NCBI GenBank assembly: GCA_035549195.1
Contig: DASZRK010000065.1
Span: 1 to 62,022, forward strand
Source: a bacterium
GTDB taxonomy: Bacteria; Oederibacteriota; Muellerivitia; Muellerivitales; Muellerivitaceae
Length of the DNA stretch: 62,022 nucleotides
Direction: 5' to 3'
Positions 7,679-52,295 of this stretch are shown here, piece after piece. The notes beneath the pieces were generated by a model, which was given only the letters and a program-made list of their open reading frames with translations, did no database searches and was not told the origin of the DNA. Both the position numbers and the translations under genes were made by a program. Position 1 is the stretch's first letter. Every line of letters begins with the position of its first letter.

Positions 7679-9037
7679 TTACTTCATCATTTTACCCAGT
7701 CGCTGAAGGTCGATCGGACGGGCGCGAACAAGCAGTCGAACGCCTTCTTCGGTAAAGCTCTCCTTCAAGATCTTCATATTCGGACGCATTTCACTCATGA
7801 CCCCTTGGGCCTTATAGGGAACGAGGATCTCCTTTTCGATCATGTCCTTCTCGAAAAATTGGACGATGCGTTCACTGACGACCCGCATGTCCTCGGGACT
7901 ACGGGTCGAGGTCAGAACGGCGTTCGGATACTCCGCCCCGAGGACCTGCTTCTGCCATTCGCTCAACCGGTCGGCCTTATTGAGGATAAGAAGATGCGGG
8001 ATCGTGTCGGCGCCGATATCGCCCAAGACTTCCCGGACCACCGCCAGTTGGGAACGGAAGTTGCGGTCGGCGGCATCCACCACGTAGAGCAACAGGGAGG
8101 CGCCGCGGGCTTCCTCCAGCGTGGAGCGGAAGGACGCCACCAGATCGTGCGGAAGCTTGTGGATGAACCCGACCGTATCGGTGATCAGGATCCTCGGCTG
8201 GGTCTCCGGTTGCAAGGCGCGCACCGTCGTATCCAGGGTCGCGAAGAGCTTGTCCTCCACCAGGACCTCGCTGCCGGTCAACGCCCGCATGAGGGAGGAT
8301 TTCCCAGCATTCGTGTAGCCCACCAGCGCGACGCCGAGCAGTTCGGCGCGTTTCATCCGGCGATGCTCTTCTTCCCTTTGGACCGCTTCCAACTCCTGCC
8401 TAAGCTCGGCCAGCCGGTCGCGGACCTTTCTCTTTTCCGTCTCGATGACGGTCTCCCCGGTCCCTTTGCCGGACTGGTGACCCTTTCCCACCCCCGTATC
8501 CCGGAGACGGGGCGCCTGATAGGTTTGGCGCGCGATATCGACCTGGAGCCGGGCCGCCCGGGTCTTCGCGTGCCGGTTGAAGATCTCGATGATCACCCCG
8601 GTCCGGTCGAGCACCGGAACCCCCACGGCCGTTTCGACGTTGCGGATCTGGGACGGGCTCAGTTCACAGTCAAAAATGACGACGGTCGCCGGTCCTTCAG
8701 GAGTTACGGCCGGGACTGGCGCCTGTTGAGTCCCTGAAAGGGGCGAGATCCCCGAACGAGGGGTTTGGGGCGCATCCGGGTCCCCCTGGACCCTATCCCG
8801 GGAACCCTTTCCTGCGGTGAGTTGGGCGATCTCCATCAATTTTCCCTCGCCCACCACAGCGATCCCTTTGGTGCTGGGTTGCCGCTGGGACATGGTCCCG
8901 GCCACCTCGTAACCCAAGGTCGTCACCAGCCGTTCGAGCTCGGTCATCGATTCCGTCGCTTCGGCATCGGTCATTTTGGGCGTTCGGACGGAGAACAGGA
9001 GCGCTCTCGGATGCGTGTTTGTCTGCGTGGATTCCAT
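7679..9037 (-). CDS. hflX: GTPase HflX
   Basis: 452 residues with the full HflX layout: N-terminal domain ending in VIFDCELSPSQIRNVE and VLDRTGVIIEIF, a coiled linker, and the GTPase domain with G1 GYTNAGKSS, G2 LFATLDTT, G3 DTVGFI and G4 NKAD. HflX binds the 50S subunit and splits or rescues stalled ribosomes, for example under heat stress. Residues of about 95-120, rich in Gly/Pro/Ser, form an insertion between the first beta-strand region and DCELSP. It is normal in GC content, unlike its small neighbours, so it may be the resident gene in an accessory stretch. Confidence 0.95.
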   Translation of the reverse strand: MESTQTNTHPRALLFSVRTPKMTDAEATESMTELERLVTTLGYEVAGTMSQRQPSTKGIAVVGEGKLMEIAQLTAGKGSRDRVQGDPDAPQTPRSGISPLSGTQQAPVPAVTPEGPATVVIFDCELSPSQIRNVETAVGVPVLDRTGVIIEIFNRHAKTRAARLQVDIARQTYQAPRLRDTGVGKGHQSGKGTGETVIETEKRKVRDRLAELRQELEAVQREEEHRRMKRAELLGVALVGYTNAGKSSLMRALTGSEVLVEDKLFATLDTTVRALQPETQPRILITDTVGFIHKLPHDLVASFRSTLEEARGASLLLYVVDAADRNFRSQLAVVREVLGDIGADTIPHLLILNKADRLSEWQKQVLGAEYPNAVLTSTRSPEDMRVVSERIVQFFEKDMIEKEILVPYKAQGVMSEMRPNMKILKESFTEEGVRLLVRARPIDLQRLGKMMK

Positions 9038-49694: not shown

Positions 49695-51821
49695 TTAAAA
49701 TTTCTTCCCGTAAAGCCTCAAGGCGTTCAACACCACCGTGACCGAGGACATCGCCATGGCCCCCGCGGCCAAGGCCGGAGGGACCGGGGCCAGGGCCGCC
49801 AGGGGCAGGGCCAGCAGGTTATAGGCGAAGGCCCAGAAGAGGTTCTGGCGGATGACGGCGAAGACGCCCCGGGAAAGCTGGATGGCCTCGATGACCTTAT
49901 GCAGTCCCCCTTGGGTGAGCACCATGTCCCCCGCTTCCTTGGCCGCGTCCACCGCCGATCCCACTGCGATCCCTAAGTCCGCCGCGGTCAGGGCCGCCGC
50001 ATCGTTGTAACCGTCCCCCACCATGGCCACCTTGAGGCCCTTGGCCTGCAGCTCCCGCAGGTATTGGAGCTTGCCTTCCGGGGCCATGCCCGCCTTCACC
50101 ACATCGACCCCGACCCGCTCCGCGACCCGCCGGGCCACCACTTCCCCATCCCCGGTCAAGAGGTGGACTTGGAGCCCCAGGCCCTTCAGGCCCTGGACCA
50201 CTTCCTTCGAATCGGACCGGGGGGGATCCTCCATCACCAGGATGGCCATGATCTTCCGGTCCACCGCCATCAAGGAGACCGTCTGGCCCCCCTGCCGGTA
50301 GGCTTCCACATTGGACCGCACCTGGGCCGAGGGCACCACCCCTTCGAGCGATTCGACGAAGGCCTTGGTGCCTATGGCCACCTCGTGGCTTTCCACCATC
50401 CCCTTCAAACCCGCCCCGGGGACCTCCTCCAGGCCCTCCACCTTGGGAAGGATGAGGTCCAGGACCATCACCTCCTTCAGGACGGCGGATGCCAGCGGGT
50501 GATTGCTCCCCAGTTCCAGGGCCCCGGCATAGCGGAGCATCTTCTCCTCCTCCGCGCCCTCGAAGACCAGCAGGTCCACGAGGCGGGGCTTACCCTCGGT
50601 CAAGGTCCCGGTCTTGTCGAAAAGCAGGACGTCCAGGGTCTGGGTCCTTTCCAGCACCTCCGCCCGGCGGATCAGGATGCCCCGCCGCGCCGCCACGCCC
50701 AACCCGGCCATGAGGGCGATGGGGGTCGCCAGGCCGAGCGCGCAGGGACAGGCCACCACCAGCACCGCCACGGCCCGCTGCAGGGCAAAGGCCGTCGTGG
50801 AATGGCCCCAGGCCATCCAGGCCCCGAAGGTCAAGAGTGCCAAAAAGAGCACGATCGGCACGAAGATCGAAGCCGCCCGGTCCGCCAAGCGCTGGACGGG
50901 AGCCTTGGACCCCTGCGCCTCTTCCACCATGCGGATGACCTGGGCCAGGGCGGTATGTTCTCCCACCTCCCGGGCCTTGATGCTCAGGGTGGCGTTCCCG
51001 TTCACGGTCCCCGCATAGACCGGCTCGCCCGGACGTTTCTCCACGGGACGGGATTCCCCGGTCAGCAGGGATTCGTCGGCCCATCCCTTCCCTTCCTTGA
51101 TATAGCCGTCCACGGGGATGGCCTCTCCCGGGCGCACGCTCAAAGTATCGCCGGGCGCCACCATCTCCACCGGCAGGTCCTCCTGGTGGGTCTCCTTGAT
51201 CACATGGGCGACGCGGGGCTGGAGGTCCATCAGGAGCTCGAGCGCCCGGTTGGCCCTCCGCTTGGCGAGGATCTCGAGGTAGCGGCCCAGGGTCACGAAA
51301 AGGATGATGAGGGACGCCGCGTCGAAATAGGTCTCCCCGGAGCGGGTCAGGAAGGCGGCCAGGGACGCGAAGAAGGCGGCCCCGGACCCGAGCGAGACGA
51401 GGCTGTCCATGAGGACCTCGCCCTTCATCAAGCCCCGGAAGGCGGCCCGGTGGAACGGGGACCCGGCGAGAAGGAAGACCGGCGCGGCCAGCGCCAGTTG
51501 CAGGCCCGGGGACAGCATGGGGATATGCCCCATCCTCAAGTGTTCCAACAGGAAGGGGAGCGAACAAAGGGCGGCGAGCCCGAGGCGCCAACCCAGCCGC
51601 ATCTTCTCGTTCTCGTAAAGCGCCTGGGTCTTGGCCGTGGGTTGGTAGGGCTGGGCCGAATAGCCGGCCTCGCGGACCGCCTCTTCCAACCGGCCCGGAT
51701 CGACGGTCCCTTGGGTGCGGACGTAGGCCCTTTGGGCGGCGAAGTTGACGGTGGCTTCCTTCACCCCCGGGACCTTCCGGAGCTTGCGTTCGATGCGGGC
51801 CGCGCAGGACGCGCAGGTCAT
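49695..51821 (-). CDS. copA: Copper-exporting P1B ATPase CopA (5' part joins copZ frame)
   Basis: The frame from ATG 51821 gives 708 residues: MTCASC metal site, TGES actuator loop, CPC helix motif VACPCALGLATPIALMAG, DKTGTLTEGKP, and GDGYNDAAALTAADLGIAVG. The first possible start lies inside the metal-binding domain, so its first strand (AILSIEG) would be missing. That strand is encoded just upstream, in frame, back to the copZ stop. The full protein therefore probably begins in copZ and enters this frame by a +1 shift at CCC-TGA, giving the usual two N-terminal metal-binding domains. Confidence 0.85.
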   Translation of the reverse strand: MTCASCAARIERKLRKVPGVKEATVNFAAQRAYVRTQGTVDPGRLEEAVREAGYSAQPYQPTAKTQALYENEKMRLGWRLGLAALCSLPFLLEHLRMGHIPMLSPGLQLALAAPVFLLAGSPFHRAAFRGLMKGEVLMDSLVSLGSGAAFFASLAAFLTRSGETYFDAASLIILFVTLGRYLEILAKRRANRALELLMDLQPRVAHVIKETHQEDLPVEMVAPGDTLSVRPGEAIPVDGYIKEGKGWADESLLTGESRPVEKRPGEPVYAGTVNGNATLSIKAREVGEHTALAQVIRMVEEAQGSKAPVQRLADRAASIFVPIVLFLALLTFGAWMAWGHSTTAFALQRAVAVLVVACPCALGLATPIALMAGLGVAARRGILIRRAEVLERTQTLDVLLFDKTGTLTEGKPRLVDLLVFEGAEEEKMLRYAGALELGSNHPLASAVLKEVMVLDLILPKVEGLEEVPGAGLKGMVESHEVAIGTKAFVESLEGVVPSAQVRSNVEAYRQGGQTVSLMAVDRKIMAILVMEDPPRSDSKEVVQGLKGLGLQVHLLTGDGEVVARRVAERVGVDVVKAGMAPEGKLQYLRELQAKGLKVAMVGDGYNDAAALTAADLGIAVGSAVDAAKEAGDMVLTQGGLHKVIEAIQLSRGVFAVIRQNLFWAFAYNLLALPLAALAPVPPALAAGAMAMSSVTVVLNALRLYGKKF

Positions 51822-51865
51822 GCCTTCGATGGAAAGGATGGCGGAATCGGCCGGGCCCGCCGGGG

Positions 51866-51874
51866 CCTCAGGGG
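51866..51874 (-). promoter_or_regulatory. Candidate +1 frameshift site CCC-TGA
   Basis: On the minus strand GTC CCC TGA GGC: slipping one base at CCC-T moves the ribosome past the stop into the copA frame (GAG GCC CCG). CCC-TGA is a recognised +1 slippery site. Purine-rich GGAGGAAGAGGG lies some 15-27 bases upstream. Confidence 0.6.
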
Positions 51875-52077
51875 ACGTGGGCGTGGTATCCCTCTTCCTC
51901 CACCGCCTGGAAGGCGGTGGGAAGGTCCAGGTCCTGTTCGGTCGTCACGACCGCCCGGCCGGGGCTCAGTTGGACCTTCACGCGGGTGACCCCGGGCAAT
52001 CGGGACAGGGCCTTCTCGACGGACCGGACACAATGGTTGCAGGTCATGCCATCCACGCTTAAAACGGTTTCTTTCAT
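51868..52077 (-). CDS. copZ: Copper chaperone CopZ / first HMA domain of CopA
   Basis: 69 residues from ATG 52077 (GGGAGG 6 bases upstream). MKETVLSVDGMTCNHCVRSV is a typical metal-binding HMA start and EEEGYHAHVP its end. The stop TGA (51868-51870) follows a CCC codon. Without a shift the product is a soluble CopZ; with a +1 shift it continues into CopA. In E. coli, copA makes a CopZ-like product by -1 frameshifting, so the dual product has a precedent. Confidence 0.85.
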   Translation of the reverse strand: MKETVLSVDGMTCNHCVRSVEKALSRLPGVTRVKVQLSPGRAVVTTEQDLDLPTAFQAVEEEGYHAHVP

Positions 52078-52295
52078 GACAAACCTCCCCAGGGCCTCTT
52101 TCCAAACATAAACAGGCGGGTTTGAAAAGAAAAGCCCGCAGATCATAGGGGTCCCGGCTTTTTTGGAAGACGTGAAACCAACCCCTCCCCATGAAACCTC
52201 ATAGGGGTTGCATTGAAATGCGCCGGGGAGGAAAATACCCCCTCATTTCGCCTCTCTTTCTTCTTATATATACCCAAAACCCTTCGGAGGTTGTC

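Follow-up and report, generated by a model that had tools for sequence, protein, structure and literature searches.

The 62,022-nucleotide stretch of bacterial DNA analyzed here (the window) contains a complete copper chaperone gene, copZ, that ends in CCC-TGA, followed by a copper-exporting ATPase gene, copA, that is open in the +1 frame across this stop and has no start codon ahead of its metal-binding motif. Tentatively, we propose that the pump is made only via a +1 slip at CCC-UGA, with CopZ as the major and a two-domain CopA as the minor product of one start, and that this arrangement was born of a deletion that turned Pro-Glu codons of the copA leader into a slip site and a stop. Taken with a −1 pair of junctions at A9 runs in two other genomes (G187 and G324) and with copA of Escherichia coli, this equally tentative reading would mean that frameshift-coupled production of CopZ and CopA has been built at least three times in bacteria, in both directions.

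Both genes lie on the minus strand, a point missing from the preliminary description of this DNA, whose coordinates were correct. copZ (51868..52077, minus strand) begins at the ATG at 52077 and encodes a 69-amino-acid copper chaperone with an HMA domain, as judged from its translation and profile match. Its 3′ end reads GGA TAC CAC GCC CAC GTC CCC TGA, in which CCC occupies 51873-51871 and TGA occupies 51870-51868. A slip-prone codon therefore directly precedes the zero-frame stop; the candidate +1 slip codon and the copZ stop together span 51868..51873 (minus strand), and the run of C's covers 51871-51874. From 51944 onward, the +1 frame stays open into copA, with no ATG, GTG, or TTG before the ATG at 51821. 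Ahead of the motif MTCASC, this frame encodes PEAPAGPADSAILSIEG; from the TGA to ATG 51821, it encodes EAPAGPADSAILSIEG, preceded by a P from CCT. The resulting startless segment, P-EAPAGPADSAILSIEG (51822..51872, minus strand), would comprise a truncated copA leader and the first strand of the HMA domain, an assignment based on codon bias and alignment with copA leaders. Codon usage between 51867 and 51822 favors the copA frame (+4.0; the other two frames score −3.7 and −5.9), and upstream of the stop it favors the copZ frame (+22.0). Among the approximately 38 distinct HMA-motif copA genes in the loci first compared, the window's copA is the only one that is startless upstream of the HMA motif.

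CopZ matches the Pfam HMA model with 57.7 bits over residues 5 to 65 (cutoff, 24.8) and scores 79.5 bits against the NCBIfam CopZ model, just under its cutoff of 85. It consists of a stand-alone HMA domain with the GMTCxxC motif of a copper chaperone, here GMTCNHC. The gene is preceded by the Shine-Dalgarno (SD) sequence GGGGAGG (52084..52090, minus strand; duplex energy, −11.1 kcal/mol), which is among the strongest in the sampled genome, where about 98% of first ATGs have none stronger. From its internal ATG, copA (49695..51821, minus strand) encodes 708 amino acids of a Cu(+)-translocating P1B-type ATPase that scores 554.2 bits against TIGR01511 (cutoff, 397), contains the Pfam domains E1-E2_ATPase, Hydrolase, and HMA, and shows the motifs DKTGTLT and ACPCALGLATP. 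The gene is intact over these 708 codons and is 55 to 70% identical to its relatives. Genome-wide, there are two matches to the HMA domain, both at the copZ-copA junction (window positions 51660-52065), and no other HMA-type copper chaperone is evident in the genome.

If copA were translated from ATG 51821, the first strand of its metal-binding domain would be lost. Including the upstream segment, the HMA domain of CopA scores 60.7 bits and aligns from profile position 2; begun at ATG 51821, it scores 52.5 bits and aligns from profile position 7. These scores bear out the view that the missing first strand of the second metal-binding domain is encoded upstream of the in-domain ATG. The preliminary description had also stated that copZ ends in CCC-TGA with copA open in the +1 frame and that no copA-frame start precedes that ATG, and the sequence agrees on both points. 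The SD energy at ATG 51821 is +1.0 kcal/mol, and 94% of the internal ATGs sampled from this genome have a stronger one; ordinary initiation of copA therefore looks poor. Ribosomes that terminate on copZ might instead reinitiate, either at ATG 51821, with loss of the first HMA strand, or at a rare AUC start at 51839. The ATG lies 46 nucleotides past the copZ stop and is reachable for reinitiation, the truncated product still matches the HMA model at its 52.5 bits, and the SD-like energy at the AUC is average (−3.5). We nevertheless consider translation of copA by this route improbable: an SD is lacking at ATG 51821, no other copA among the approximately 38 relies on that internal methionine, and the upstream segment retains both the codon bias of copA and the conserved ILSIEG strand. 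AUC start codons, moreover, are very weak. Because the copA frame has no start, ATG 51821 has no SD, and the domain strand would otherwise be cut, a frameshift would be the simplest route to a complete CopA from the sequence as given.

In the proposed mechanism, translation would begin at the strong copZ ribosome-binding site, and most ribosomes would stop at CCC-TGA, yielding CopZ on its own. A minority would instead slip +1 on CCC (to CCU), pass the TGA, and produce a CopA bearing two metal-binding domains at its N terminus. Slippage by +1 at CCC_UGA has been documented: it reaches 15% at the end of E. coli pheL, it exceeds 1% in roughly half of the 19 E. coli genes with this ending, and the tsh genes of Listeria phages make use of it (PMC5009743). 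The suggestion that a slip could occur at CCC-T is thus in keeping with a site type for which +1 slippage is documented (PMC5009743). We regard it as an evenly balanced possibility, judging from the sequence, that a +1 slip at CCC-TGA is in fact used here, whether programmed or merely tolerated.

The surroundings of the site bear on which of these two it might be. RNA structure predicted from the TGA downstream is no better than in shuffled sequences (z, +0.53), and no SD-like element is found at the 3-nucleotide spacing of prfB; the nearest SD-like run lies about 15 nucleotides upstream of the CCC. Neither kind of stimulatory element thus accompanies the site, which lowers the case for a programmed event and not the case for slippage. 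An unstimulated slip of a few percent would yield more chaperone than pump, which seems biologically reasonable. CCC-TGA is not a rare ending in this genome (G000): it closes 16 of 784 ORFs of at least 150 amino acids in 1.12 Mb (about 2%) and is not avoided. General +1 leakage at CCC-TGA, if there is any, would touch about 2% of genes. A missing tRNA-Pro was considered as a cause of slippage and rejected, as the UGG, CGG, and GGG isoacceptors are all present.

The relatives show how the junction may have arisen. The copA N terminus is readable in seven relatives from this family or order (G001, G002, and G004 to G008), and in all seven copA has its own ATG. Wherever copZ is present upstream in these relatives, it is a separate gene followed by a spacer. 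The preliminary description had proposed looking for the same CCC-TGA junction in related genomes and had held that separate copZ and copA genes with a proper copA start would speak against it. None of the seven relatives shares the junction, and the separate arrangement is present in every readable close relative. A second genome of the same genus was not found, and the junction is known from one genome. Since the arrangement is private to that genome, no case can be made for selection acting on the slip site. The pairs of the FCPU426 relatives (L004, L006, L007, L008, and L010) resemble the window's in having copZ upstream of a homologous copA (55 to 70% identity); they differ in that a spacer separates the two genes and copA has a regular start codon.

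Alignment shows that the window's upstream segment matches the copA leaders of these relatives and keeps the conserved ILSIEG strand. In G001, where copA starts from its own ATG with MDSEIKTDAFPEAPSRSVILSVEGMTC, the leader contains CCT GAA GCC CC (PEAP) in the copA frame, and the window's equivalent is CCT GAG GCC CC; this match is short, and MAFFT does not put the four residues in one column. Shifted by one base, C-CCT-GAG reads CCC-TGA, and the copZ stop would therefore most simply be copA leader sequence. This correspondence suggests that a deletion left part of the copA leader to be read in the wrong frame, as the CCC-TGA ending of copZ. Ancestrally, copZ and copA would have been separate neighbors. 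A deletion in this lineage would then have taken the spacer, the copA start codon, and approximately the first ten leader codons, so that copZ ran into copA with the frame offset by one base. We infer this deletion history from the short PEAP match. Elsewhere, in a set of genes chosen for containing CCTGA, copA leaders often use this sequence to encode Pro-Glu, and a slip site of this kind could therefore be easily created by fusion.

Alternatively, copZ and copA could be an in-frame fusion whose sequence is off by one base, through either an assembly error or a recent mutation. Removal of a single C would give the reading ...HAHV-PEAPAGPADSAILSIEG-MTCASC, an ordinary two-domain CopA with no separate CopZ. 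The frame break does fall within the CCCC run, and fused two-domain CopA proteins are common, with in-frame spacing in 11 of 14 two-motif matches. Further, the genome is a draft of 80 contigs from an uncultured organism. To gauge assembly quality, we searched it for indels in two ways. Stretches of the genome were compared with the proteins of G004 by tblastn, covering 274 orthologs and 98,131 aligned residues with a simulated sensitivity of 56%; no genuine frameshift was seen in the 274 orthologs. Three strong candidates from this comparison were rejected as spurious out-of-frame ORFs of the relative, and there were two weaker, short candidates besides. A codon-based hidden Markov model (HMM) run over 1.12 Mb, with a sensitivity of about 19%, returned 11 calls, of which copZ-copA was the one genuine startless junction; the other 10 were ordinary gene boundaries or repeats. 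The assembly is not riddled with indels, although these screens leave room for as many as roughly one in every 55 kb. A random indel would also have to hit a linker of about 50 nucleotides and leave a complete CopZ that ends at a known slip codon, and a run of four C's is short for a sequencing error. We consider a one-base error or mutation less likely than not, though by no means remote.

A true +1 slip at this junction would have a close functional parallel. In E. coli, a programmed −1 frameshift within copA yields a CopZ-like chaperone alongside CopA (Meydan et al. 2017; see also PMC5009743 and PMC9548414). As in the arrangement proposed here, one start serves both a small HMA chaperone and a CopA that carries two HMA domains at its N terminus, and the frame changes between the first of these domains and the second. 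The roles of the frames differ: in E. coli the pump is read in the zero frame and the −1 shift gives the chaperone, whereas in the window copZ is the zero frame and copA is in the +1 frame, so that slippage would give the pump. The E. coli slip site is a different one and is accompanied by a stimulatory structure, whereas none was found at the window junction. The +1 slip on CCC before UGA is shared with Listeria phage tsh and E. coli pheL, which differ in being phage structural genes or leader-peptide leakage and involve no metal pump (PMC5009743). A +1 slip at a sense codon just before UGA is also what links the window junction to prfB (RF2) and antizyme. Those genes carry conserved stimulators, namely an SD-like element, a pseudoknot, and a regulator of their own. 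The window site differs in that no stimulator was found and the site is not conserved. The junction plausibly represents a credible +1 variant of a known theme, seen in a single genome. If the proposal is true, the junction would mirror E. coli copA frameshifting in the +1 direction, with pump and chaperone trading roles, and it would offer a snapshot of a frameshift switch as it arises, in which a deletion fuses neighbors out of frame and leader codons supply both slip site and stop.

Startless copA genes behind copZ are found in other genomes as well. A pattern survey of 384 genomes led to G187 (L212/L202, G187:C44, approximately 8650-8900, minus strand), where copZ ends GTT AAA AAA AAA CCG TAG, which includes an A9 run, and the −1 frame leads on into copA without any ATG, GTG, or TTG before GMTC. 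In G324 (L213, G324:C35), copZ ends GTA AAA AAA AAC TGA, with the A9 run at L213:1366-1374, and copA is likewise −1 and startless. The two genomes represent two genera of one family, and their copA genes are 62% identical. Both have the A9 run, a copA in the −1 frame, and no copA start; they differ in codon register and linker. These features suggest that the A9 junction makes copZ-copA fusions by −1 frameshifting or by transcriptional slippage. As in the window, a complete copZ is followed by a startless copA in another frame; the shift in this pair is −1 at an A9 run and is found in two genera, whereas the window's is +1. Conservation across two genera makes a stronger case for frameshift-coupled copZ-copA than does the one instance in the window, and it raises the prior for a functional junction there. 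Frameshifted copZ-copA pairs thus appear to recur, and the −1 junction in G187 and G324 suggests that frameshift coupling of CopZ and CopA is a recurrent solution.

A pattern survey that covered 400 genomes from another phylum turned up 11 copA genes, none of them startless. Odd-spaced two-HMA or adjacent pairs in G048 and G306 were rejected as startless cases on account of their proper ATG or TTG starts. G348 (L194, G348:C13, approximately 73300-73850, minus strand) has the order copZ-csoR-copA; copA there follows the csoR stop with no ATG, GTG, or TTG before GMTC, and csoR itself contains an in-frame TAG.
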